Positions 2,987 to 23,909 of a stretch of DNA of 24,219 nt are shown in pieces (the stretch's first letter is position 1; every line of letters starts with the position of its first letter). The notes beneath the pieces were generated by a model that ran no database searches, was not told the DNA's origin, and saw nothing but the letters and a program-made list of their open reading frames with translations. The DNA is from a virus. Location of the stretch: positions 1 through 24,219 of the IMG/VR virus record IMGVR_UViG_3300025301_000111; one strand, written 5' to 3'. The translations under genes were made by a program, and so were the position numbers.

Positions 2987-5900
2987 ATGCCGCAACCTAC
3001 AAAACAGCACTTACAATTAGTTGGAGGGGCAAATGCAGTTAATAGTACAATTTACACTTCTAGTCTCATTAGCATTGGAGATGCATTAAAGATAACTGGC
3101 ACTGGTAGTAATGATGGGATATTTACCGTGACTGATGTTGTTGATACTTTAAGCAGTAATGATGCGGCTGGTACAACATTCACACAAGCAAGTTGTACTG
3201 TAAGCAGTGGTGATGCTACAATTACACATAGCTCAAATACTCAAATAATAGCTGGTTTGTCTGTATCTGGTACAGGCATTCAAACAGATACATATATTGC
3301 TTCAATAACTGATTCAACTCATTTTGAAATGAGTAAAACTGCTAGTTCTAGCGGAACTAGAACCCTGACATTTGGCGATATGGATATTTATTATGTTTTA
3401 AAGGGTAGAACCATTTCCGATGATAGTTCTGGCGGAGACCCTACAATACAAATTAATAGTCAAGGTGATAAAATGGTTGCCCTTGGTGACGTTGATAGTA
3501 AAGGCGGTGTAGATGTTTGGTCAACTAATGCAACTACTAGTTATGGTGCAAAAGATAATGGCTGGACAACATCAGCTATTAGTCCAACTCTTTCTGGGAA
3601 CGATGCTAAGTATATATATCATATTGCAGATGGAACTGTTCGTGTTTGCGATATAAACGAAACAAATTCTACGATAATAAAATGGTATGGATATGTACAG
3701 GGAAATCAGTTCCATGCTACTACTGGTCTTGTTTTTGCTGAATGGCAGGAACATCCAAATTCTTTAGCTCCTCCTAAGATAGCTACTTCTTTTACATATG
3801 CCTATGGCACGTCTAGCCACGCTGGTGGAACTGCTACTAATTATTATAATTATCTTACTGATGATACTTGCGATACAGACCATACTGCTGGAAGTGGCTC
3901 AACATTCGGAAGTAATCCTAAGATTGTGCGAATGGATGCTACTGGCTCACTTGCTGTGGGAATGTGTGTCACCGGTACAGGAATTGCGGCTGGTTCTGTT
4001 GTATCCCAAATAGATTCAGGTACTCTTTTTAGGGTTGATAAAGATACAACCGCTACAAATACTAACGAAGAATTAACCTTTTTTCACAACAGGGGAGTTG
4101 CTATTATAAAAAAAACTGGGTCTGACCAATTACAAATGGGCGTTGACCTTTCCACATCAGCAACTGGTGTTAAGTTTGAAAATGGCTCCGGTGCTGATAA
4201 AAGCGGTAGAGCTGTTGTTGGAGAAGTTATATCTATTAAGGAAGCTAGTGGCGGAGTTGGAGATTTGGGAGAATATCCAAAAGAATTTTTATTCTGTAAG
4301 CAGGGTTATAGTTCAGCTACTGGAACTTCTACATACTCAAGAGCATATGGCGGTGCTTTAGGAGGCACTGCTCCATTTGATTTTGCTGATAATGAAACTC
4401 CTATCATTGTCAGGGGAACCGGTTGGAACATAGCTGTATCAGCAGGCACAGGAAATGGCGATTGGGAAGAGGGTACCTATGAATTTTATGAGACATTTAT
4501 ATACGATAATAATCAAGAGTCTTTACCAGTTCAAATAGGCGATGGTGCTTCAACCATTGCGGCTTTTACTGTAGCTGTTACAGTATCTCAAACATTGAGG
4601 GTTTCTGTGTATGCTGACTTAGCTTACAGTGGAAGAATAACTGGTGGGAGAATATATACAAGACTCAATGGTACAGATGATGATTTAGTATTATTAGCAG
4701 ATATAGATATTGTCAAGGGAATGAGAACAAATCTAGATGGAGACCATAGGGCTTGGACATATGAAGCTGGAAAAGGTTATCATGTTGTTAGTGGTACTTA
4801 CGGGAACGCTATTAAACCAAACCTAGATACATATACAACTATAAACGCCTTTAGCCCGGATTTAAAGTTCTTAGGTATAGGCGGCACTAATGAAATATAT
4901 AAAGCATCAGTGGTGGCTAATAGAAGGACATTTGTTGCTAATGTTAAATTGAAGGCAGGCTCTGGAGAGCTGGAAAAGTTTGGCGACAGGATTATGTATA
5001 GCGAGATAGGTAAATTCGATACATTTCTTGAATATAATTTTATAGATGTTTCAACTGGAGATTATGGTGAGTATACTGCCTTAGAATCGTTTGCTGACAG
5101 GTTGTTAGCCTTCAAACATAATCTGGTTCATATTATTAATGTATCCAGCCCAAGTGTTTCTAGCTGGTATCTTGAAGAAACTATTAAGTATTTTGGCGTA
5201 AATTTCCCATTTAGTGTTGCTAAGACAAAATATGGGATAGCTTGGGTCTCTGATGATGGATGTTATTTATATGATGGTAGAAATGTTAGAAATTTAATAG
5301 ATAAAAAAATAGCAGTGAGCAAGGCTTCTTTTACTGATACTGAGGTAGATTGGAATAGTTGGTATCGTGGTTCTGCTATAACTAAAGACGTAATGCTTGG
5401 CTATGACCCTATCAGCAATTCTCTCATAATGATGAGGAGTCCCAATGATGCATCAGATGATTCAAACCAATCTTTTGTATATGATTTCGATAGTAACGGG
5501 TGGACATATCACACTACAATATTTACCAATCACTTATATTATACAAACTTTATTACAGACTGGAACAACAATTTAAGCCTTGGTGTGTTTGATGGGAGCA
5601 CTGATGTAGAGTTTAAAAAGTTTTTACCTATTAGTGTTGCTCAGTCAGGTCAAGAGTTTAATACAAAGGATATAGATTTTGGGCACCCCGGCTTAATTAA
5701 AAAGATATATAAGGTAACCATGACTTATAAATCCAGTGCAGAACAACAGACCCCATTATATTATGCTATAAATGGCAGTCAAAGCTTCAGTTCATTTGCG
5801 AGCGACATTACCCCACAGGGGAACACTGGAGGTGCCGGCTATTTAGAAAGTTCTTTAGTTTGGGATGTTGCAACATTCACACCCAGTTCTCCTGTCTCAT

Positions 5901-6687: not shown

Positions 6688-6806
6688 TGGTCTCTAAAAC
6701 AAGAATAATCAACCAATTACAGTATTTGAAAAGATGTGTAAGTTCACTATCTTTAAAACGTATAATTATATCCGTATCAAACGGTATTTATAAGGAGTCT
6801 CTATGA
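6687..6806 (+). CDS. 39-aa basic peptide filling the gap before the ejection-protein genes
   Basis: This frame exactly fills what would otherwise be a 115-base gap. ATG 6687 overlaps the preceding TAA (TAATG) and TGA 6804-6806 overlaps the following ATG (ATGA). The 39 residues are basic and Ser/Ile/Leu-rich (MVSKTRIINQLQYLKRCVSS at the start), with no clear membrane helix. The double overlap is the signature of a real gene here. The same stretch also contains TATAAT at 6761-6766 and a strong AAGGAG at 6792-6797 for the next gene, so it may instead be only a promoter/leader region. Confidence 0.5.
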   Translation: MVSKTRIINQLQYLKRCVSSLSLKRIIISVSNGIYKESL

Positions 6807-7591
6807 GAACTTTACTCGGTATGCAATATGGCGGTAATGTACCGCAACAGTATCCTAGACAGCAAATACCCCCACAACAATTTCAAGAAGGTGGTGTCCC
6901 TGACACTGTCTCTGCTGGTTTAGCCGGTTTAAGAAGATTAGGTAAAAAACGAGAAGCTAGGGATGTTTTTGGAGAAGAACAAACTGAACAGATTGGAAAG
7001 CAGAAAAGCGGAAGTTTTTTGGGCTCTGTCCTTGGTCTCGGTAGTGGGGCTACAGCGGCATGGCTGGTGCCAATTCTTCTTTCTAATCCCGCCACCGCCG
7101 CCGCCGCTCTTCCTTGGTTGGTTGGCGGTGCAACTGGTGCTGGCAAATGGCTTGGTGAATATTTAGGCTATGGTGGAAAACAGGATATAGATACAGATAT
7201 TGCATATGGAAAAGAAGCAGGTCTTGAAGATATTGAGCGTGCAGGAGATGAATATAGAGGTGATATGTGGAAAAAATCTTTACTAGCTGGTGCTAAAGCT
7301 GGATTAACCGCCGGGTATGCACCTAGTGGCGGTATATATGGTAAAATAGCTGGTCGCGGTGCGCCAGCGATAGATACTGCTGTTACTAGGGCTAGTGAAC
7401 AGGCTATATTTGACAGTTGGAGTCCAGAAATGAAAGAGGCATATATTGGATGGGTTGGTGAACCGGGTCGGGTAAGCAATAGACTTACTTCTGATTGGCT
7501 GGCATCACCTGAATTTTCATCATCATCATTTCAGGGAGGTAGTATGATAAACCAGCAACCACAATCATTGTTAAGTTATTTAACGAGATAA
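6803..7591 (+). CDS. 262-aa Gly/Ala-rich probable internal virion (ejection) protein
   Basis: ATG 6803 has AAGGAG seven bases upstream. Residues 7-31 are Gln/Pro/Gly-rich (QYGGNVPQQYPRQQIPPQQF). Residues about 70-122 hold two hydrophobic Gly/Ala-rich segments (FLGSVLGLGSGATAAWLVPI and ATAAAALPWLVGGATGAG), suited to membrane insertion. The rest is mixed helical. Small glycine-rich, membrane-active proteins encoded just before very large helical proteins are typical of podovirus DNA-ejection sets. This is inference from composition and order; no specific homologue is recognised. Confidence 0.8.
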   Translation: MRTLLGMQYGGNVPQQYPRQQIPPQQFQEGGVPDTVSAGLAGLRRLGKKREARDVFGEEQTEQIGKQKSGSFLGSVLGLGSGATAAWLVPILLSNPATAAAALPWLVGGATGAGKWLGEYLGYGGKQDIDTDIAYGKEAGLEDIERAGDEYRGDMWKKSLLAGAKAGLTAGYAPSGGIYGKIAGRGAPAIDTAVTRASEQAIFDSWSPEMKEAYIGWVGEPGRVSNRLTSDWLASPEFSSSSFQGGSMINQQPQSLLSYLTR

Positions 7592-10104: not shown

Positions 10105-13100
10105 ATGGCTAACGGCAGAACCCCATACGGCTACCATGAAGACCTACTCAATAACGCTGTAGCCAACCAAGGAACATATGAGCTTTATGAAGATGGTCTT
10201 CAAAAAGTAGGTGACAGATTAAACCAACCCTTTGCCATCCCGTCAAGAGATTACAGTTATTACGAAACACAAGCACAGCAAGTTGCCAGTGATGAAGTAA
10301 CGTCATCTAAAGAAGATGAGGATTTATTTGGCTTTGTTCCGGGCGATTGGTTAGCTGATTGGATAAAGGTAGGTTATAACAATAGCATAGAGGGTCTATC
10401 TCGTCAGTTAATTACGGGCGAAAAGAGATGGAATATACCAGATGAGGTAGAACAAAACTTCGGTGCAATGGAAGACATTGGCGCTACCGTTATGTCTTTT
10501 TTGACGTTAACAGATATAGGCGCAATGGCGGCTGGAGGCGGAATCGGAGGTTTTGCTGTAAAAGGCACTGTTAAACAGGCCGCTAAACAAGCTATTAAAC
10601 AAGGATTAGCTAAAACAACCCTTACTAAAAACTTAAATAAAAATATTGTAAAGGAAGTTGTGGAGCGAAATTCACCTAGAGCTGTTCAGCTTTTAGTGAA
10701 TAACGGTAAGGTGAAACAAGAGGTTGCTGAAAAGGTTATAGCGGATGCTAGTAAAAAAGTTGCTAATAAACTTATTACAGAGCGTGCTGTAACAGGAGCA
10801 ACTGGTCTTGGTTTTTATAGTGGCTTACAATCATCACTTGGTCAGGAAGTACAAACTGGTGATATAAGCTTAGTGCAAACATTAGCTGATGCTTCAAAAG
10901 GTGCTGTTCTTGGTGCTGTAACTGCTGGTTCTGGCTCTGCAATGAATAGTTATTTAATAAGTAAACTTGGTTTACCAAAAACTGCTTCACAAAAACTTGC
11001 TCACTCTACCGCTGTTAAGGCATTGGAAACCGCTGAGTTTGGTACATTATCTCCAGCACTGGAGGGTAGGTTACCTGAATGGAACGATTATGTCCATGCC
11101 GCCGGAGTAATAGGCGGTTTAACAATAGCTAAAAATACACCAAAATACGCTAAAAAATTAATGAACATGGAGAACCCTAAGTTATCTATGGATAAGTGGA
11201 GTAAGCCATTAGCCGAAGCTCAGTTTGAAACTGCTAGGAAAAATGATATTTGGAAAAATAATAAGGGTGAGCAGTTAAAGAATGTAGAATTAAAGACCAA
11301 GAAAAGAAAGCTCACAAAAGAAGAAAAAGAACAAGGTCAGAAAGAAGATGCTGAGATTATAACAGGTGAAGATGTAAAGACTGGTGAAAAGGTTCAGTTA
11401 ACTGGTGAGCAATTTCTTGAACAAGGCTTTAATAGAAGACGGAGAGTCAAAGAACAAGATGAAATAAAGACTGCTAGGAGAAGGGAAACATTTGGGAAAA
11501 TGGGTGATTTCTTAAAATGGAGCAATGAAAGAATTACAAAAGCCGTGAATGATATCAGAGCGTTGGCTGGTAAAGACAAGATTGAACCAAAAAAAGGGCA
11601 TACCGGGTATAGTTCATTAACAGAAATAGAAAGAATTAAATTGCTTGATTATGTAAGAAAAATGGAGCACATAGAAAAAACCAGAACAGGTTTGAGAGAA
11701 TCAGGGGCTAGTGATTTTATGATTCCAAAATCAACTCTATTTAGTAAGATTATACCAGATGTAATTAAACAGGCTCAAAACAGGGCAAGAAGCACAGCCA
11801 GTTTAGATATAATGAGAAGCATAGACATTGTTGACATCAAAGGTGCAACTAGGGTCGGTACTTATATGCAGGCTCTTACAGAGGCTGGAATTTATAGGGG
11901 TGGTGCTTTTGCAAAGATATTTGGTAGATGGTCTGTAGAAGTACCGGATAATTTGCAATTAGATTTTTTAAATAAAAAACCGGGTGCAGTAAAAAAAGAC
12001 AAGTCTGGTAAAACAAGATTGAAATTAAGAAAAGAATCTCAGGCTAAAGAATATTACGAAGATTTATCTAGAAGGATGCAAGACCCAAATCATCGGAAGG
12101 ATGTTGATGTTAAAAAGATGAGAAAGGTTCTTGATGAAGCTTATTTTGAAGCAAAAAAAGCTGGTGTTGATGTGGCAGACCATATGCAAGATTATTTTCC
12201 ACATATGGTAAAAGCAGATAGAATGGCAAAGTTGGCAAATGATGTTAATACAATAATAGCTCTTGATTCAGCGTTTGAAGGTGATAGGATTAGTTCACTG
12301 CCTAATACATCTAGGTTATTAGCAGAAAAAATCAATCAGTTACAAGCAGATGGAAAATTATCTAGAGATACAGTAAAAGCTATTGACCATATAAAAAAGC
12401 AATTAAAAGATATAAGCGATTCAGATGTCAAAATGGCTGAAGCGTTCTTACGGTTAAGAAAAGAGACTCAAAAAACATTTACTACAGTTGGATGGTTAGA
12501 AAAATCAAGAAAGATAGATTTACCACCGCAATTCTATGAAGGAGATGCTCGTATTGTTCTGACAAAATACCTTACTGATGTAGCAAAGAGAACAGAGTTT
12601 GCAAGAGAGTTTGGAGCAAAAGGTGAGAAGTTTGATAGTACAATAGGTGCCCTTACAAAAATGCAAGAAAAAGTAATTGATACAAATCCAACCCTTGCAA
12701 AACAACTTGGTAAAGAGATTGAGTTAATTGATAAAATATATAAGATGGGCTTTAACCTTAGCGAAACAGACCCGCGTTTTAATTGGAGAGACCCTTGGGC
12801 TAGAAAATCAGCTAAAATCATTGTTGACTTTGAAGTTGCTACAAAGATTGGTCTCGGTTATGCTACTATACCAAATATAACTCAGACACTTATTTCAACT
12901 GCTGTAAAGGCTGGGTATTGGAATACAATTAAAGGCGGTGTAAAACTAGCGATAGACAAGGAATATAGAAAAGAAGTAGCAAAATCTGGTCTGAGTAATC
13001 TATCTGTATTTCAGATGTTAATGGGACTTGAGCCATCTGATAGTTGGATGGGCAAGGCGGCTCATAAGCTTACAAAAATCAGTGGTTTTCAGGGGATAAA

Positions 13101-14145
13101 CAAAGTAAACCAATATTTAGCCGCCGCCGCTGGACGTGAATACGTTACTTCCCTTATGAACGCTAGGAATAGTAAAATAAAATGGAGAAGAGATTGGGCT
13201 GAACAAAGTTTAAGAGATTTGAATATAGATGCAAAATCTCAGAGAAATCTTAATGGGAAAGATTGGGTAAAGGCTAATCAGCAACAGACATTAGAAGCAA
13301 TGTATAAGTTCTCAAGAGATGCCCAGCTACAAAGAAATGTATTAAAAGACCCCATCTTTGCCAATGACCCAAGATTTAGACCGCTATTTCTATTCAAAAG
13401 ATTTGGCTATAAACAATTTAACTGGATGAGAGAAAATCTTTCTCAAGAATTTACCAGAGGAAATATTTTACCAATAATAAGATTAGGTATTGGCGGTATG
13501 TTTGGTGCTCAATTTGTTACTTGGTCTAAAAAAGTATTGAATAATATCTTAGCTGGTGAAGATGTAACTTATGACGAGAGTAGATTGTTCATACCGGGCT
13601 TGCCGCCGGGAACACCATTAGGTACAATGGGGTCTGACGTTAATACAGATATGTCTCAATACACTTGGGGTGATTTCTTTGACCATGTTTCTTCTGTTGG
13701 AGCATTTGGTTTTATAAGTGATATACTGGCAAGTGAAAGCAAATATAGGGCAGTAGAATTTTTAGTTAAACCTGCAATCTTTCAAGATGCAATGAAAGGC
13801 GTTGATGCTTTACAAAGAATATATAAAGATATAGAAGATTATGGTATTGGTGCTGGCAAAAGATTGCCTAAATATATTGCACCAATTTTAGGAACCGTCC
13901 CAAGAAGAGCCGCTAAACAACTTGAAACACCGGGTCAAAAAGAAACATATACTAGATATAGAAGGGGTATTATACGTGGCAGGATTTTAGATGCTCTTTT
14001 AGAGGGTAAGGATAAGGAAGCTAATAGGATGATGCAGGCTTGGAATAGGGCAAATCCAGTTGAAGCACTTTATGTTGAGGATATTGGTGTTGATGCTATA
14101 TTCGATAGGGCTTATAAGAAAGCCGTAAAAAGAACTAAGCCCTAG
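10105..14145 (+). CDS. 1346-aa giant internal virion/ejection-type protein
   Basis: This is the largest gene and the last of the + strand operon; ATG 10105 follows a weak TAGGG. The N-terminus carries FVPGDWLADWIKVGYNNS, then Gly/Ala-rich hydrophobic stretches (about 137-153, GAMAAGGGIGGFAVKG; around 265-280). The middle is long, charged and helical. The C-terminal third has RPLFLFKRFGYKQFNWMREN followed by a hydrophobic Gly-rich helix at about 1121-1141 (ILPIIRLGIGGMFGAQFVTW). That arrangement resembles the domain often found at the ends of large 'polyvalent' phage proteins (LPD38-like). I saw no lytic transglycosylase or protease signature. Most likely it is the major protein ejected with the DNA; inference. 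Confidence 0.85.
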   Translation: MANGRTPYGYHEDLLNNAVANQGTYELYEDGLQKVGDRLNQPFAIPSRDYSYYETQAQQVASDEVTSSKEDEDLFGFVPGDWLADWIKVGYNNSIEGLSRQLITGEKRWNIPDEVEQNFGAMEDIGATVMSFLTLTDIGAMAAGGGIGGFAVKGTVKQAAKQAIKQGLAKTTLTKNLNKNIVKEVVERNSPRAVQLLVNNGKVKQEVAEKVIADASKKVANKLITERAVTGATGLGFYSGLQSSLGQEVQTGDISLVQTLADASKGAVLGAVTAGSGSAMNSYLISKLGLPKTASQKLAHSTAVKALETAEFGTLSPALEGRLPEWNDYVHAAGVIGGLTIAKNTPKYAKKLMNMENPKLSMDKWSKPLAEAQFETARKNDIWKNNKGEQLKNVELKTKKRKLTKEEKEQGQKEDAEIITGEDVKTGEKVQLTGEQFLEQGFNRRRRVKEQDEIKTARRRETFGKMGDFLKWSNERITKAVNDIRALAGKDKIEPKKGHTGYSSLTEIERIKLLDYVRKMEHIEKTRTGLRESGASDFMIPKSTLFSKIIPDVIKQAQNRARSTASLDIMRSIDIVDIKGATRVGTYMQALTEAGIYRGGAFAKIFGRWSVEVPDNLQLDFLNKKPGAVKKDKSGKTRLKLRKESQAKEYYEDLSRRMQDPNHRKDVDVKKMRKVLDEAYFEAKKAGVDVADHMQDYFPHMVKADRMAKLANDVNTIIALDSAFEGDRISSLPNTSRLLAEKINQLQADGKLSRDTVKAIDHIKKQLKDISDSDVKMAEAFLRLRKETQKTFTTVGWLEKSRKIDLPPQFYEGDARIVLTKYLTDVAKRTEFAREFGAKGEKFDSTIGALTKMQEKVIDTNPTLAKQLGKEIELIDKIYKMGFNLSETDPRFNWRDPWARKSAKIIVDFEVATKIGLGYATIPNITQTLISTAVKAGYWNTIKGGVKLAIDKEYRKEVAKSGLSNLSVFQMLMGLEPSDSWMGKAAHKLTKISGFQGINKVNQYLAAAAGREYVTSLMNARNSKIKWRRDWAEQSLRDLNIDAKSQRNLNGKDWVKANQQQTLEAMYKFSRDAQLQRNVLKDPIFANDPRFRPLFLFKRFGYKQFNWMRENLSQEFTRGNILPIIRLGIGGMFGAQFVTWSKKVLNNILAGEDVTYDESRLFIPGLPPGTPLGTMGSDVNTDMSQYTWGDFFDHVSSVGAFGFISDILASESKYRAVEFLVKPAIFQDAMKGVDALQRIYKDIEDYGIGAGKRLPKYIAPILGTVPRRAAKQLETPGQKETYTRYRRGIIRGRILDALLEGKDKEANRMMQAWNRANPVEALYVEDIGVDAIFDRAYKKAVKRTKP

Positions 14146-16737: not shown

Positions 16738-17132
16738 AACGGGATATCCAATGTGCTGATAACCCTAGCAACCGGGTACTTCACCACTTTAGAGAACGCA
16801 TTAGTGAAAACTTTTTCATATACTTCTATAGTCACCAGTTCACCTATAATTTTTTCAGGTTTAAAACTTGGAGTATCGCTACTCCTGTCTCTCTTAATGC
16901 CCATTACATTCAGGAACCTTGCATAACCCCAATTTTTCTTGGGGTCATACAAGAATCCATCAGCCTTTTTATATCTGAACACGCCGTTATCTTTAACAGT
17001 ACCGCCGTCAACATGATATACGGGCTTGTAAACATCGGCTAAATACCTGCCGAATCTGATATCAGTTGCAACTTCAACATCAACGATTTTCGCGTTTTGT
17101 TTTCCTGTCTTAACTGAATCATAACTCCGCAT
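16734..17132 (-). CDS. Possible ssDNA-binding (DUF669-like) protein
   Basis: This 132-residue protein starts at ATG 17132, overlapping the upstream gene by 14 bases, without a clear ribosome-binding site. It is predicted beta-rich, with RFGRYLADVYKPVYHVDGG, VKDNGVFRYKKADGF, a short helix (YARFLNVMGIKRD) and then IIGELVTIEVYEKVFTNAF and YPVARVIS. A beta-barrel followed by 'LG-I...G..v.v.v....' resembles phage DUF669/OB-fold single-strand-binding proteins that accompany recombination nucleases. The gene order (this, a 126-residue partner, Cas4-like nuclease) supports the idea. The call is tentative. Confidence 0.65.
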   Translation of the reverse strand: MRSYDSVKTGKQNAKIVDVEVATDIRFGRYLADVYKPVYHVDGGTVKDNGVFRYKKADGFLYDPKKNWGYARFLNVMGIKRDRSSDTPSFKPEKIIGELVTIEVYEKVFTNAFSKVVKYPVARVISTLDIPF

Positions 17133-17499
17133 TATTGCTGGAAAGTTCTTCTATCCTCCGCAGGCAGACATCCAAGTTTTCCTTAGTGATGTGACCATCT
17201 GCAAGTGATTTAAGCACCTTATCCCTGTCACCACTAGTTAAAGCCTGAGCCTTATCCTTAATAATTTCAGCAATATGCTCTGCATCCGTGTTGTTTTCAG
17301 CCTTTCCAAAAGCACTGTTTGTAACTGAACCGTTACCAGATGTTGATTTGCCGTCAACAACATACCTTACCCAACACTCAATCTGAGTGCAGAGTTCGTC
17401 TGTCATATTCATGCCGTTAGTAAAAGCGGCGACTGCAAAACCATGCCTGATTTTACCTTCAGTTATCTTATCCCAATCGGGTTGTTTTGTTTCACTCAT
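17119..17499 (-). CDS. 126-aa recombination-block protein, unknown family
   Basis: ATG 17499 has AAGGAG at good spacing and overlaps the nuclease gene stop. The N-terminal part (PDWDKITEGKIRHGFAVAAF) is a pattern I recall in proteins encoded next to phage single-strand annealing or ssDNA-binding genes. It is followed by CTQIECWVRYVVDGKS, a Ser/Asn/Gly-rich linker (about residues 55-72) and a C-terminal helical part (VCLRRIEELSSN). It is soluble, with no enzyme motif. It may be an accessory to the nuclease and ssDNA-binding neighbours. Confidence 0.7.
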   Translation of the reverse strand: MSETKQPDWDKITEGKIRHGFAVAAFTNGMNMTDELCTQIECWVRYVVDGKSTSGNGSVTNSAFGKAENNTDAEHIAEIIKDKAQALTSGDRDKVLKSLADGHITKENLDVCLRRIEELSSNNAEL

Positions 17500-18227
17500 A
17501 GTTTATTATCTCCTTCTGATTTTAAACCACCACCGCAGACTTCAAAAAATCCGCAGTATTTAGGGTTGCATTCCCACGAATATGCAGGTGCAACGCCTAA
17601 CTCTATTGCCGGGTTCCCTTTTTTGAATCGTTTATTAAGGTCTACCCAATAATTCTTTGCCTCTTCTATGTACTGGACATCAACAGGGTATTCTCTCATT
17701 GCTGATGTATCCTTCTGATAGTAGATGAGTGCAAGTTTTTTCATGCGCTTACTATATTCCTCTTCATACCACCAAGCATATGCCCCTAGTTGCAGGTGGT
17801 AATTAATGGATGGTGCAGGGTCTGGACACCTGCCAAATAATTTCTTCCACTTAAAAGAATTGCAGGTCTTAATGTCATACAGTGCATCATCGTCTGCCAC
17901 AATGATATCCAAGAACCCGCGTACATTAACCTTTGGCAACTGAATCTCTTTTTCAATAAATATCTGTGTACCATTATTCTGGGCATATTCTCCAAGCGCA
18001 TCCTGTATGTCTCCGTGAACCAAATCGCCAAGCCTGAACAGGCGCAGGGTATCTTTGTCAATGGGCTTTGGTTTTACCTTTGCAACGTGCTGAAAATAAT
18101 GCTTACGCATACACATTCCAGATGCTGATGCGTGAAACCACTTCTCATGCCCATCATATCTTTTCTTCTGATGGAGACTATTTCTATTTGCTATGTATTC
18201 GTTATAAATCCCTATAATATCAATCAC
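17496..18227 (-). CDS. Cas4/RecB-like PD-(D/E)XK exonuclease with predicted 4Fe-4S cluster
   Basis: This 243-residue protein starts at GTG 18227 with GGGAG eight bases upstream. In order: Cys39 in ASASGMC39MRK, H71 in LGDLVH71GD, D107 in GFLD107IIV, D118-I-K120-T (the D-x-K core) and Q146-L-GAY150. The C-terminal trio is Cys220, Cys225 and Cys231 (C-NPKY-C-GFFEV-C). One N-terminal plus three C-terminal cysteines around a RecB nuclease core is the Cas4/AddB arrangement that binds a 4Fe-4S cluster. Such phage enzymes resect DNA ends for recombination or processing. No cas1, cas2 or CRISPR repeats are nearby, so a replication/recombination role is far more likely than spacer acquisition. Confidence 0.88.
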   Translation of the reverse strand: MIDIIGIYNEYIANRNSLHQKKRYDGHEKWFHASASGMCMRKHYFQHVAKVKPKPIDKDTLRLFRLGDLVHGDIQDALGEYAQNNGTQIFIEKEIQLPKVNVRGFLDIIVADDDALYDIKTCNSFKWKKLFGRCPDPAPSINYHLQLGAYAWWYEEEYSKRMKKLALIYYQKDTSAMREYPVDVQYIEEAKNYWVDLNKRFKKGNPAIELGVAPAYSWECNPKYCGFFEVCGGGLKSEGDNKL

Positions 18228-18677: not shown

Positions 18678-18866
18678 TTATTTAGGTGGACTTAAGAACA
18701 CTTCCAATCCGCGACCAACTTTTTCCATAAAACTTGCGGTTGGGGTTGCCAAATCAATCTTTTTGTACACTCTTTTTCTGTTTGACCAGTAGGTATCGCA
18801 ATCCTGTGCAATCCTGTATCCATTTGCCTTGGTTGTACCTTTAGGTCTTCCACGCTTTGTTTTCAT
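18678..18866 (-). CDS. 62-aa AT-hook DNA-binding protein
   Basis: ATG 18866 has a strong AAAGGAG and overlaps the HNH gene stop (ATGA). Residues 2-11 (KTKRGRPKGT) are a canonical AT-hook (core R-G-R-P), which inserts into the minor groove of AT-rich DNA. The rest (YRIAQDCDTYWSNRKRVYKK, EKVGRGLEVFLSPPK) is unrecognised. Being coupled to the HNH gene suggests it is part of the same cassette, perhaps helping target or regulate it; that is inference. Confidence 0.7.
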   Translation of the reverse strand: MKTKRGRPKGTTKANGYRIAQDCDTYWSNRKRVYKKIDLATPTASFMEKVGRGLEVFLSPPK

Positions 18867-19522
18867 TTAGAGACTCCTTTGTATTCTTTTTTTAGTTTCT
18901 CTCTTCTTTTTTTTGTTACAGCGGAAGAATGCTGAGACATTACTTCCGCAAACTTCTCAGATATTTCCCGCTTCTGTTTATTAAACGTCCCGTTTTCAGA
19001 AAAGTTCCCGTTATATTCATATAATTTTTTAATTAATTTTGAGTATCCTTCAATATAATCAGATATCTCTTTCCAGTGATTAAAGTCTTTTGATGTTTTT
19101 AAGAAGTGGCAGTTGTGACACCTGACCTCGCACTTGGCAATCTCTTTCTCAATTCGTATCCAACTGTACCCTTCCCTGACTAACAGATTGACACCTTCGG
19201 TTTTTCTAATCCTTAATTTTTCATCCATAGAGATATGGTCAAAAACCATAGATGATGGATGATACAGCACACCACAGTCAGTACACGGCACATTCAAATA
19301 CTTGGTTATAATCTTTATATAATTCAGCAGACTCCTGCCCCGTTTGTTTATCCTGCCACGCTTGATGTCCCTTTCTTTATTTTTATGGTAAGCAGACCGG
19401 TTAAATGCAGTCTGACATACCTTGCACATAGTCTGCAACTTGTCTTTTCTGCAATTATTTACATGGAAATAAGAAACAGGCTTTGTTTCTTTGCACTTAC
19501 AACATTTTTTCATTTTTTGCAT
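18863..19522 (-). CDS. HNH endonuclease with N-terminal zinc finger
   Basis: This 219-residue protein starts at ATG 19522 (or 19513). Residues 7-36 hold a first zinc knuckle (CCKCKETKPVSYFH; MCKVC). The HNH core comes later: C80-TDC83, the catalytic-type VFDH96 at 94-96, then a helix and EVRC135HNC138H139. This is the layout of phage HNH enzymes related to homing endonucleases. They cut DNA lacking the insertion and spread their gene, though some act in packaging or modification. A basic C-terminal region (KKRREKLKKEYKG) could bind DNA. It is preceded by a hairpin rather than a ribosome-binding site, and is flanked on the far side by a related hairpin, as expected of a mobile insert. Confidence 0.85.
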   Translation of the reverse strand: MQKMKKCCKCKETKPVSYFHVNNCRKDKLQTMCKVCQTAFNRSAYHKNKERDIKRGRINKRGRSLLNYIKIITKYLNVPCTDCGVLYHPSSMVFDHISMDEKLRIRKTEGVNLLVREGYSWIRIEKEIAKCEVRCHNCHFLKTSKDFNHWKEISDYIEGYSKLIKKLYEYNGNFSENGTFNKQKREISEKFAEVMSQHSSAVTKKRREKLKKEYKGVSK

Positions 19523-21535: not shown

Positions 21536-21816
21536 TTTTTATTTTCCTTTTTCTTGTTTATTATTGTAGCAAAGCAGGGCGTATTATCGCCAACCCAAGA
21601 ACCAATCGTATTGTAATAAAAGTAGTCCATTGCATCTTCGCTATCTTTAATGCCCTGCTCCGCAAGAAGTTCCAAACATTTTTCCTTGTCGTATAAAACC
21701 ACTGGCTCCATACTGCATCTTTCGACAATGCCTAGAATAGCATCATCATAGCCATCAGCAAATAACACTTCCGGGTATTTGCTTGCAATGATGTCCTTAA
21801 CAAGCCTGATGTTCAG
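21532..21816 (-). CDS. Conserved phage protein of unknown function, probable CTG start
   Basis: The recognisable core (VLFADGYDDAILGIVERC, then EPVVLYDKEKCLELL, then YYNTIGSWVGDNTPCF) belongs to a small protein family I recall from many phages, function unknown. In that family a helix resembling IRLVKDIIASKYPE precedes 'VLFADG'. This helix is present in frame upstream of the first conventional start (GTG 21768), but no ATG, GTG or TTG is available there. CTG 21816-21814 overlaps the previous stop (CTGA) and has CGGAG six bases upstream (21827-21823). I therefore place the start at CTG, giving 94 residues; the fallback GTG gives 78 and lacks a ribosome-binding site. Confidence 0.7.
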   Translation of the reverse strand: MNIRLVKDIIASKYPEVLFADGYDDAILGIVERCSMEPVVLYDKEKCLELLAEQGIKDSEDAMDYFYYNTIGSWVGDNTPCFATIINKKKENKK

Positions 21817-22013
21817 TTTACACTCCGCTCTAAGAGACCAATCTCATCAGCAATGTAATTTGTGACAGATTCAATATCCAGAGAGATGTGCTTTAACATA
21901 TCTATCAATGCTCGTTTACTTAAATCCGAGTTGATTCCTTCTGTATAAGCATACATCCTGAATACCTTGGCTCTTATTTTTTCGAGTCTTTTTATTTCTT
22001 GTTTCATGTTCAT
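21813..22013 (-). CDS. 66-aa helical hypothetical protein after an early promoter
   Basis: ATG 22013 is preceded by AAGGAC; a second ATG at 22007 is equally possible. The sequence (MKQEIKRLEKIRAKVFRMYA, then LIDMLKHISLDIESVTNYIA) is a two-helix charged protein with no other motif. The TATAAT of the promoter-like element at 22012-22041 overlaps its ATG. A transcript from it would begin near the second ATG and be leaderless. The end overlaps the following gene (CTGA). Confidence 0.65.
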   Translation of the reverse strand: MNMKQEIKRLEKIRAKVFRMYAYTEGINSDLSKRALIDMLKHISLDIESVTNYIADEIGLLERSVN

Positions 22014-22041
22014 TATACGTCCTTATTTTAAAAAAGTTCCA
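22012..22041 (-). promoter_or_regulatory. Copy 2 of a 30-base leftward promoter-like element
   Basis: On the - strand: TGGAACTTTTTTAAAA (22041-22026), eight bases TAAGGACG, then TATAAT (22017-22012). It matches the element at 23869-23898 in 26 of 30 positions with identical spacing. GGAACTT lies 16 bases from TATAAT, a workable -35/-10 distance. Confidence 0.65.
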
Positions 22042-22048
22042 TTTTATT

Positions 22049-22423
22049 TTAAACTTTCCACACTCCACCTTCAATTTCTTCCGGTATAAGACCGAAACTT
22101 GACATTTTTGACAGTGTACTAACATATATGTAGGTTGGTTCTTTTAATTTTGGTTTCATTTCCCTTAAATCAATACGCTTATACAAGCCCAAGTGAACAC
22201 TTTCTACTAAATCAAGCGTTCTTAGTGTCCCTGAATGAACGTCATATTTTTCTCCCCAAATCCAATCATCATCTTCATCTGTTTTTACGGCAAAAGGAAA
22301 CCCGCTTTTAGAATCATACATCTTGAATCCAGTAACTACAGTATCAATAATGAATTCTGAATCATCCAAGTAACTAGATAACTTTCCACCTTTTTTCAGA
22401 GTGCCGTATACTATTACTTTCAT
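22049..22423 (-). CDS. Gamma-glutamylcyclotransferase-like (GGCT/AIG2 fold) protein
   Basis: This 124-residue protein starts at ATG 22423 with AAGGAAA upstream. The family signature YGTLKKGG lies at residues 6-13, followed by VTGFKMYDSKSGFPFAV (about 30-46) and IWGEKYDV (W56-G57-E58). TLRTLDLVE74 follows with the usual catalytic-position Glu, then YKR. Length is normal for the family. Family members cyclise gamma-glutamyl amines or peptides to release 5-oxoproline. In phages the substrate is unknown and could be glutathione-related or a glutamyl-modified molecule. It sits directly upstream of a promoter-like element, so it ends one small transcription unit. Confidence 0.85.
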   Translation of the reverse strand: MKVIVYGTLKKGGKLSSYLDDSEFIIDTVVTGFKMYDSKSGFPFAVKTDEDDDWIWGEKYDVHSGTLRTLDLVESVHLGLYKRIDLREMKPKLKEPTYIYVSTLSKMSSFGLIPEEIEGGVWKV

Positions 22424-22605
22424 TTTGTTTCCTTATTATTTAGTTTTAGCCACATTTTGCGGAGAGCAGTTAAAAGTTTTCTTCGTTCACGAATATTCAT
22501 CTTTGTCCAAGACTTTGCACCAATTACCCTTAACTGCTCACGCAATACAGCACTAATACCTAGTTCAGCCTGTGCTTTCCTGTAACTGTCTGATAATTCT
22601 GACAT
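22420..22605 (-). CDS. 61-aa basic helical hypothetical protein
   Basis: ATG 22605 overlaps the stop of the small membrane gene (TAATG) and has no own ribosome-binding site, so translation is probably coupled. The sequence (SDSYRKAQAELGISAVLREQ, then NIRERRKLLTALRKMWLKLN) is a basic three-helix-like protein that could bind nucleic acid. No family is recognised. Confidence 0.65.
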   Translation of the reverse strand: MSELSDSYRKAQAELGISAVLREQLRVIGAKSWTKMNIRERRKLLTALRKMWLKLNNKETK

Positions 22606-22754
22606 TATTTGTCTAATAATCTCTGCTTTCCGTTAAAGAAAACAATCATTTCTCTCCACTTGTCCAAACTATAGAGAGCCGTGTTTAACTTGGTCTTTAA
22701 ATGCAATGTATACGTAAAGCATAAAGCCAATAATATCAATAGTATCCCGTTCAT
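22605..22754 (-). CDS. 49-aa single-TM protein
   Basis: This small frame exactly fills the gap between its neighbours. ATG 22754 forms ATGA with the upstream stop and TAA 22605-22607 overlaps the next ATG. Residues 2-17 (NGILLILLALCFTYTL) form a membrane anchor followed by a basic amphipathic tail (WREMIVFFNGKQRLLDK). Small membrane-anchored early proteins are often phage-to-host interaction or exclusion factors; the specific role is unknown. Confidence 0.6.
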   Translation of the reverse strand: MNGILLILLALCFTYTLHLKTKLNTALYSLDKWREMIVFFNGKQRLLDK

Positions 22755-22933
22755 TCTTCCTCGTCACTCCCGGTTATTCTCCACAAGGAAACTTTACCCT
22801 TGCTATCGTATTTAATCACCACATTCCAACCCTTTTTAGTCAGCCGGTCTCTCTCTGATTCCAACCAACCTAAGTCCATTTTAAAGAGCCACATGGTTAT
22901 CTGATAACCATTATCCAGTTTACTTTCTTTCAT
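22751..22933 (-). CDS. 60-aa hypothetical protein
   Basis: ATG 22933 has AAGGAAGG upstream. The product has a helix (MWLFKMDLGWLESERDRLTK) and then a beta hairpin (GWNVVIKYDSKGKVSLWRI) and an acidic end. It is small, soluble and unrecognised. Its stop overlaps the start of the 49-residue membrane protein. Confidence 0.65.
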   Translation of the reverse strand: MKESKLDNGYQITMWLFKMDLGWLESERDRLTKKGWNVVIKYDSKGKVSLWRITGSDEEE

Positions 22934-23166
22934 TACTTACCTTCCTTTTTATTTGAAATCATTGAATATGAAACGAATGATTCAATAATACTATCATCCG
23001 TATCCATTGCTACCGCAATTAATTCGTCATCACTGTCATTGCTCTGTATAGAATCATAGATAGCACATGAACCTATATTTAACTCTTTCTCACAGTATTC
23101 GCTTGTATGATTACTATGTGAATCTTTTATGAATTGTAAGAATTCATTCTTTTCCTTTTTATTCAT
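22933..23166 (-). CDS. 77-aa acidic hypothetical protein
   Basis: ATG 23166 has GGGGAG at good spacing. The 77 residues are Ser/Asp/Glu-rich and strongly acidic (SIQSNDSDDELIAVAMDTDD), a composition seen in DNA-mimic inhibitors, though nothing else supports that role. It overlaps the possible histone-fold gene by eight bases, pairing an acidic with a basic small protein. No family is recognised. Confidence 0.6.
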   Translation of the reverse strand: MNKKEKNEFLQFIKDSHSNHTSEYCEKELNIGSCAIYDSIQSNDSDDELIAVAMDTDDSIIESFVSYSMISNKKEGK

Positions 23167-23350
23167 TGTTTAATCTCCCCAATGCTACCCAAAATAGTTC
23201 GGGCGTTAATCTTTTAAGGTTACCATCTTTGCACCTTCTCGCCATCCTGCTTACCTGTACCTTTAATTCGTATTCTATGCTCTCAATAGCACCTTTACCT
23301 AGTTGCACCCCATCATGACTAAATGCCTGTTTTATATATTTTTTATTCAT
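23159..23350 (-). CDS. 63-aa small protein with possible histone fold
   Basis: ATG 23350 follows AAAGGAAAGCGAG and overlaps the previous stop (TAATG). The layout is a short helix (KKYIKQAFSHDG), V-Q-L-G-K-G, a long helix (AIESIEYELKVQVSRMARRC) and then LKRLTP with a last helix (ELFWVALGRL). It matches the lengths and loop positions of a histone fold, a helix of about 11 residues, then one of about 25, then one of about 10. LKRLTPELFWVAL parallels the loop-2/third-helix region of archaeal and H4-type histones (RKT(V/I)-A-D---AL). I recall similar 'KRLTPELFWVAL' proteins in other phages without assigned function. If correct it would dimerise and bind DNA. Inference only. Confidence 0.65.
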   Translation of the reverse strand: MNKKYIKQAFSHDGVQLGKGAIESIEYELKVQVSRMARRCKDGNLKRLTPELFWVALGRLNNE

Positions 23351-23523
23351 TACTCGCTTTCCTTTTCATCAAACACCAATTTGATTTTGTAATCATTGGC
23401 TACTTTTTTTAATAATATCTCCGTGTAATATCTTTTATCGCTTGCCATTTCTAAAGTGTATCCCATAGTAAAAAGATATTCTATTGCATCAATACATTCT
23501 TTTTTTGTTACTTTATTTAGCAT
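23350..23523 (-). CDS. 57-aa hypothetical protein
   Basis: ATG 23523 has GGGGAAA upstream; TAA 23350-23352 overlaps the next ATG. The 57 residues (KKECIDAIEYLFTMGYTLEM, RYYTEILLKKVANDYKIKLV) are helical then beta, soluble, with no motif. The clean ribosome-binding site and the overlap make it a real gene despite its length. Function unknown. Confidence 0.65.
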   Translation of the reverse strand: MLNKVTKKECIDAIEYLFTMGYTLEMASDKRYYTEILLKKVANDYKIKLVFDEKESE

Positions 23524-23526
23524 TAT

Positions 23527-23739
23527 TTATTTCCCCATTTCCCAAGTCAGCCAGTTAATAAACATCCTGCGTATCATAGATGTCGATTTACTAACCATTG
23601 GTATAGTATGTGCGTTGATTGATTTATTCACTCTCGGATTATGTAGCATTGTTAATTTCCAATCCTTGCTTAACTGTTTCCACCACATTAAGGCTTTTTT
23701 ATTGATACTGTTTACATCAATGTTTATTGTTTGTTTCAT
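23527..23739 (-). CDS. 70-aa basic hypothetical protein, first gene after a structured leader
   Basis: ATG 23739 has AAGGA about ten bases upstream. The product is basic, Trp/Lys/Asn-rich (NKKALMWWKQLSKDWKLTML, RRMFINWLTWEMGK), with no membrane helix or metal site. It is the first gene downstream of the promoter-like element at 23869-23898 and the structured leader. It is therefore likely among the earliest leftward products. No family is recognised. Confidence 0.65.
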   Translation of the reverse strand: MKQTINIDVNSINKKALMWWKQLSKDWKLTMLHNPRVNKSINAHTIPMVSKSTSMIRRMFINWLTWEMGK

Positions 23740-23862
23740 ACTGTTTTCCTTTTTAAGTGGTTCATGTGGGTGAAACCAGTTTTCACGTGATTTATGGGTC
23801 TATATTTACACACCCGGGAAAGACATCTTTTATTCCCCTGTTACACGAACCATTTTTGTTTG
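23740..23862 (-). ncRNA. Structured 5' leader of the leftward early operon
   Basis: About 120 bases lie between the predicted transcription start and the first gene. Outer arms CACGAACCA (23844-23852) and TGGTTC-AT-GTG (23758-23768) pair; inside, GTGAAA (23770-23775) pairs with TTTCAC (23781-23786) and GGGTG (23768-23772) can alternatively pair with CACCC (23811-23815). The ribosome-binding site lies just outside the closing helix. A 7-codon frame opens at the leader's start (ATG 23853-23851). No known riboswitch class is recognised. Confidence 0.4.
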
Positions 23863-23868
23863 TTTCCT

Positions 23869-23898
23869 ATTATACTACCTACTTTTAAAAAAGTTCCA
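23869..23898 (-). promoter_or_regulatory. Copy 1 of a 30-base leftward promoter-like element
   Basis: On the - strand: TGGAACTTTTTTAAAA (23898-23883), eight bases GTAGGTAG, then TATAAT (23874-23869). The spacing equals that of the copy at 22012-22041. It sits in the intergenic space upstream of a run of small leftward genes, as expected of an early promoter. Confidence 0.7.
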
Positions 23899-23909
23899 AA
23901 TTAGTTTAT

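Follow-up and report, generated by a model that had tools for sequence, protein, structure and literature searches.

The DNA analysed here (the window), 24,219 bases long, is IMG/VR record IMGVR_UViG_3300025301_000111, probably a fragment of a virus genome. Structural genes run rightward over approximately 1–14.1 kb, and small non-structural genes run leftward over 14.2–24.2 kb. The leftward block contains three copies, here called A, B and C, of a two-part promoter-like element that is the subject of this analysis. An initial annotation had described copies A and B as minus-strand sites in which TGGAACTTTTTTAAAA and TATAAT are separated by 8 bases that include AGG, and which agree at 26 of 30 positions, a description that is exact. 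Copy A faces a leftward cluster that begins with a small open reading frame (ORF) at 23527–23739. Copy B is placed between the ORFs at 22049–22423 and 21813–22007, and copy C lies within the 3′ end of an HNH ORF, upstream of genes for an 83-amino-acid (aa) protein, a Cas4-like exonuclease and recombination-type proteins.

The 30-base pattern occurred in none of 100 dinucleotide shuffles, a control that is circular, the pattern being derived from the sites; the real test lies in sequences outside the window. The exact pattern found no match in viral contigs, and a matrix was therefore needed. Queries with two window proteins, of 305 aa and 1346 aa, retrieved related viral contigs at 34–100% identity, and a profile search yielded 71 related loci; the 1346 aa virion-type protein was used both for fetching and for orienting relatives. 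The comparison covered 25 records at full or almost full length, the window among them, comprising 21 in the lineage that bears the motif (792 kb) and four that are more distant (G220–G223). The near-complete records have a size of approximately 37–46 kb. The motif-bearing phages are one lineage of uncultured podoviruses with genomes of about 40–45 kb, and no close cultured relative was found by DNA or protein searches. Full scans of the near-complete genomes G002 and G009 identified a P22-type portal, an SU10-type major capsid protein, a terminase, a Cas4-like exonuclease and RusA-like or HNH nucleases, and no DNA polymerase was among the Pfam and PHROG families listed for them.

The matrix, seeded from GGAAC[TA][TA]...GT sites in the window and ten relatives and then iterated, settled at 65 sites, 64 of which are on the non-structural strand; reversed sequence gave 1. 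Ten held-out genomes contain 51 distinct matrix sites, all of them (51/51) on the non-structural strand, again with 1 in reversed sequence. Across the 21 lineage records, the non-structural strand carries 110 sites, the other strand 1 and the reversed control 1, and the four more distant relatives have 0. Near-complete genomes possess approximately 3 to 10 near-identical copies each, ahead of genes of the non-structural block. The two sites noticed at first are thus neither the only copies nor unconserved, given this set and the third copy in the window. Their promoter-like character, recognized by the initial annotation, and their placement before non-structural, presumably early, clusters extend to the relatives, and a matrix scan of the kind it proposed places the further copies almost entirely on the one strand.

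The spacing of the two parts was assessed by taking every GGAACTT and asking for the position of GT over offsets 12 to 35. On the non-structural strand of the held-out genomes, GT is found at offset 22 in 35 of 79 cases, against 1–13 at any other offset, with smaller secondary peaks at 23 and 31. The corresponding values at offset 22 are 5 of 33 on the opposite strand and 0 of 9 in the distant relatives. Most of the distinct sites (81/95) are intergenic, where intergenic DNA, by the same rule, makes up approximately 13–21% of four sampled genomes. At most sites, the next start codon follows the end of GTATAA after 22–36 nucleotides (nt), enough for a short leader that contains a ribosome-binding site. 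The sole structural-strand site among the 21 records (G007, 3460+) is positioned 81 nt upstream of a DUF932-like gene (3541–4542) that is inverted in G007 alone and occupies the non-structural strand in all ten other genomes that have it. As the only site on the opposite strand precedes this inverted gene, the motif has moved with its gene. At two sites of G002 (25195 and 29086), the -10 is followed within a few nt by the start of a very short ORF, whose end reaches, or falls just short of, the ribosome-binding site of the main gene; such ORFs (for example, MNANQKRK) are possibly leader peptides or merely part of the start region.

The consensus of the lineage set is TAAwTTGGAAC-TTTTT-A-rich-N-g[C/A]GTATAAnAA. 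Over the 95 distinct sites, the successive bases of GGAAC are present at 95, 93, 95, 95 and 95 sites, and those of the GT in the -10, located 17 bases after GGAAC at a single spacing, at 93 and 95. The base preceding GT is C at 53 sites and A at 35, and the base following it is A at 66, T at 27, G at 2 and C at none. The two blocks shared by copies A and B fare differently in the lineage: the GGAAC part is invariant, whereas TATAAT gives way, the conserved bases being GGAAC and GT. The -10 of the Bacillus subtilis sigmaW promoter is CGTA.

These features were compared with those of known promoter classes. Promoters of extracytoplasmic function (ECF) sigma factors are marked by AAC at -35 and CGT at -10 (PMC8103513), and the lineage element has an AAC-containing -35 (GGAAC) together with a CGT-type -10 at fixed spacing, the held-out offset test included. 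The sigmaE (RpoE) promoter of Escherichia coli and Salmonella combines the -35 GGAACTTTT with the -10 GTCAAA (PMC1804206). The phage consensus shares GGAACTTTT, a -10 starting with GT and a comparable spacing, so that the -35 agrees with the sigmaE form GGAACTT(TT), as the initial annotation had recognized; its -10, however, reads GTATAA or GTTATA (PMC1804206 for the sigmaE form), and it is phage-borne on a presumed early block. Because C follows GT at no site, this is not a strict sigmaE promoter. ECF promoters of the AAC/CGT kind, of which that of B. subtilis sigmaW is an example, are similar in their AAC -35, their CGT(A/T) -10 and the T-rich stretch after the -35 (PMC8103513, PMC3397946), but the phage CGT has C at only 53/95 sites, with A at 35/95, and no cognate sigma was found for the phage set. 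In an ECF promoter of Thermoanaerobacter, CGTC is required and the adjoining TATA is dispensable (PMC3397946).

The consensus GGAACTTTTT...[C/A]GTATAA fits the ECF class. Judged by its sequence, the lineage element is probably a complete ECF-type promoter (-35 GGAAC, -10 [C/A]GTATAA), close to that of sigmaE, and would be recognized by a factor of this class. The initial annotation had proposed a hybrid of a sigmaE-type -35 with a housekeeping -10. No hybrid is needed, as the -10 itself appears to be of ECF type, and the TATAAT would be mostly the AT-rich tail of that -10. Promoter activity is inferred, as is early timing, the latter from gene content and position. In the proposed mechanism, the host core RNA polymerase with an ECF-class sigma would transcribe the non-structural block, with domain sigma4 on GGAAC and domain sigma2 on CGT, and a different transcription route would serve the structural genes of the opposite strand. 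The sigma is more likely to be supplied by the host than encoded by the phage, and we give host supply about an even chance.

Candidates for a phage-encoded sigma were sought at several levels. No Sigma70_r2 or r4_2 domain was found in 11 records, Pfam scans of the two near-complete genomes G002 and G009 gave no sigma or RNA polymerase family, and no RNA polymerase was among the PHROG families listed for these two; metagenomic records may be incomplete, and the absence of a sigma gene carries weight only for near-complete ones. In profile–profile comparisons of 154 protein clusters, the best probability was 2.4% against an ECF profile and 8.2% against the phage sigmas gp47 of 7-11 and phi32_gp36. 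As positive controls against the ECF profile, 7-11 gp47 scored 88.7%, gp47 with phi32_gp36 94.2%, and phi32_gp36 alone 14.8%. The protein of cluster 9 was considered as a hidden sigma on account of marginal phmmer matches of its homologues in G010 and G213 to the phiEco32 sigma gp36 (best E = 6e-4). This was the only cluster with a weak phmmer match; the protein matches no sigma by profile or fold, its structural model is poor (predicted local distance difference test score, pLDDT, of 62), and, predicted to be all-helical, it is at 126–135 aa short for sigma2 plus sigma4; the candidate was rejected.

The strongest alternative, to which we assign a minor but real share of probability, is that the phages encode their own highly diverged ECF-like sigma, the promoter set being its regulon. 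There is precedent in podoviruses: phiEco32 and 7-11 have promoter sets outside sigma70 that are read by phage-coded ECF-like sigmas (PMC8948821, PMC4331800), and gp47 of 7-11, which reads GTAAtg-(16)-aCTA, is only 15% identical to phi32_gp36 (PMC8948821). The lineage likewise has a repeated non-sigma70 set (110 sites in 21 records), in which neither tAATGTAtA nor GTAAtg-(16)-aCTA is the sequence. The late promoters of 7-11 resemble it as a two-part phage set in a podovirus whose non-structural genes lie opposite the structural ones; they differ in sequence, drive late genes and depend on a phage-coded sigma (PMC8948821), whereas the lineage set faces non-structural genes and no sigma was found. 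The middle and late promoters of phiEco32 (gp36, tAATGTAtA) are similarly a phage-specific set with an ECF-like sigma in a genome of broadly similar layout, but consist of a single element without a -35 and are read by a phage-coded sigma, whereas the lineage set keeps a canonical GGAAC -35. The low scores of all 154 clusters and the short cluster 9 protein with its unsupported match argue against a sigma of the phages' own. The confinement of the motif to the lineage and its lack of enrichment in the sole host candidate (below) favour such a sigma, as does the weak detectability of phi32_gp36 by itself.

Several points weigh against a host ECF sigma as the reader of the element. Since phi32_gp36 alone scores 14.8%, a phage sigma that has diverged as far could escape detection. 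Of 50 viral loci with the strict motif or one variant of it, 46 belong to this lineage and four have single, chance-like matches; no unrelated phage among them carries the motif convincingly. This restriction counts against a host sigma because such a sigma might serve other phages too, and the lack of the motif in unrelated phages is as compatible with a lineage-specific reader as with a specialized host. ECF factors are usually kept inactive by anti-sigma factors and would be an odd choice for early genes. The motif is also not enriched in the Candidatus Marinimicrobia metagenome-assembled genome (MAG) UBA7303 (3 matches, against 16 for the control) or in 41 genomes of the Marinimicrobia group (5 against 17), a result that speaks either against a host sigma from Marinimicrobia or against Marinimicrobia as the host. 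That MAG includes the only bacterial-genome relative of the phages, contig L052 (DKQR01000126.1), with a copy of the 1346 aa protein that is 52% identical; the contig is either a clue to the host or a mis-binned phage contig. With a single MAG contig, no second genome with a relative among 199 and no enrichment of the motif, Marinimicrobia was set aside as host. In five Marinimicrobia genomes, ECF genes are preceded by a GGAACTT...GGTTATAT match that resembled an autoregulated promoter; this candidate was likewise dropped, as the match falls in the coding part of the preceding gene, where it encodes the conserved peptide NGT......GYIP.

An improbable alternative is the reading closest to the hybrid, in which a sigma70-type polymerase would act on TATAAT and a MotA-like host or phage activator on GGAACTTTTT. 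In both sites first described, TATAAT is perfect and correctly spaced, and the -10 is generally AT-rich; no phage activator was identified. Over the 95 sites, however, A is present at -11 in 66 and T at -7 in only 39, the exact in-register TATAAT occurs at 17, and the conserved -35 block is GGAAC rather than TTGACA. A near-invariant G, not needed by sigma70, precedes the TATAAT register, and a sigma70 scan of the early region gave 36 sites against 35 expected, the level of chance, with neither element listed. It is very unlikely that the element is a non-promoter protein-binding site, for instance a repressor operator or part of a replication region: the several intergenic copies per genome and the iteron-like region near the first copy would suit one, but the element lacks symmetry and takes the orientation of its downstream gene, the inverted one included, and it is two-part, with a fixed -35/-10 spacing and a near-constant distance to start codons. 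A promoter of a phage single-subunit RNA polymerase, an enzyme common in podoviruses, is scarcely credible, as neither Pfam nor the listed PHROG families show an RNA polymerase in the two near-complete genomes and two conserved blocks with a variable spacer between them do not fit.

The features of the window and of the relatives are collected in Table 1. The close counterpart of copy A in G002 has one mismatch relative to the pattern of the initial annotation and is also ahead of a small-gene cluster. Copy B is kept in the same position in L003 and L004. Its TATAAT continues into an ATG at 22013, and the next ATG, at 22007, is backed by relatives as the start of the 64 aa gene: G001 and G002 have an ATG at this place only, and the N-termini of homologues are aligned in G005, G006, G008 and G216. 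Copy B is atypical in that the start codon at 22007 is approximately 5 nt beyond the -10, an arrangement common to G001 and G002; because of this proximity, its transcript would be leaderless or nearly so. Several relatives (for example, G001, G002, G009 and G010) have a counterpart of copy C in the corresponding position, ahead of the exonuclease and recombination-type genes. At copy C, the same bases are used for the C-terminus of the HNH endonuclease and for the predicted promoter of the downstream genes. By clustering, the Cas4/PD-(D/E)XK exonuclease is present in 17/17 near-complete motif-bearing records.

Table 1 Coordinates of predicted promoter copies, genes and repeats. Positions refer to the window unless a relative is named.
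Feature	Position	Strand	Remarks
Predicted promoter copy A, TAATTTGGAACTTTTTTAAAAGTAGGTAGTATAATAGG	23866..23903 (initially annotated core 23869-23898)	-	Exact match; matrix 39.1 bits
Predicted promoter copy B, TAAAATGGAACTTTTTTAAAATAAGGACGTATAATGAA	22009..22046 (initially annotated core 22012-22041)	-	Exact match; 36.2 bits
Predicted promoter copy C, ATAACGGGAACTTTTCTGAAAACGGGACGTTTAATAAA	18977..19014	-	29.6 bits; missed by the initial annotation
64 aa gene immediately downstream of copy B	21813..22007	-	Start backed by relatives
Gamma-glutamyl cyclotransferase-like gene, last in cluster behind copy A	22049..22423	-	phrog_2520, E = 9.6e-6
HNH/endonuclease VII-like gene, copy C in its coding sequence	18863..19522	-	phrog_2255, E = 2e-25
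Cas4/PD-(D/E)XK exonuclease, downstream of copy C	17496..18227	-	phrog_1706, E = 1.3e-22
Cluster 9 helical protein, 126-135 aa, begins PDWDKITEGKIRHG	17119-17499		Ubiquitous; adjoins exonuclease; no known family
1346 aa virion-type protein	10105..14145	+ (structural strand)	Homologues in 24/25 compared records, window counted
Iteron-like repeats TGCACGTANGTA	G002 (L029) ~29,270-29,520; G001 ~6,690-6,890; G006 22,326-22,417		

Iteron-like repeats TGCACGTANGTA, in 2–6 copies on one strand, are present in 14 of the 21 lineage records, which include G003, G005, G008–G010, G211–G214, G216 and G217 in addition to those in Table 1. The repeat region is intergenic and located upstream of the first motif copies, and in G001 and G002 the repeats stand alongside the DnaA-box-like TTATCCACA and AT-rich DNA. 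This region is likely to be a phage replication origin that uses host DnaA. In G007, the corresponding gap contains GC[AG]ACGTGCAC repeats.

ECF sigma factors are normally silent until released by stress, and, to our knowledge, the phages known to use ECF-like promoters supply their own sigma. This phage group, which combines canonical ECF promoters with the lack of a visible sigma, would either exploit a host stress sigma directly or hide a new kind of sigma. In metagenomes, the matrix is strong enough to pick out the lineage as well as its early transcription units, and it predicts the promoter specificity required of the sigma of the host (or of the phage). We tentatively suggest, as a possibility somewhat short of even odds, that tailed phages lacking a sigma and a polymerase may run their whole non-structural programme from the envelope-stress (ECF) promoter type of the host, by which infection would be tied to, or would trigger, the host stress response.

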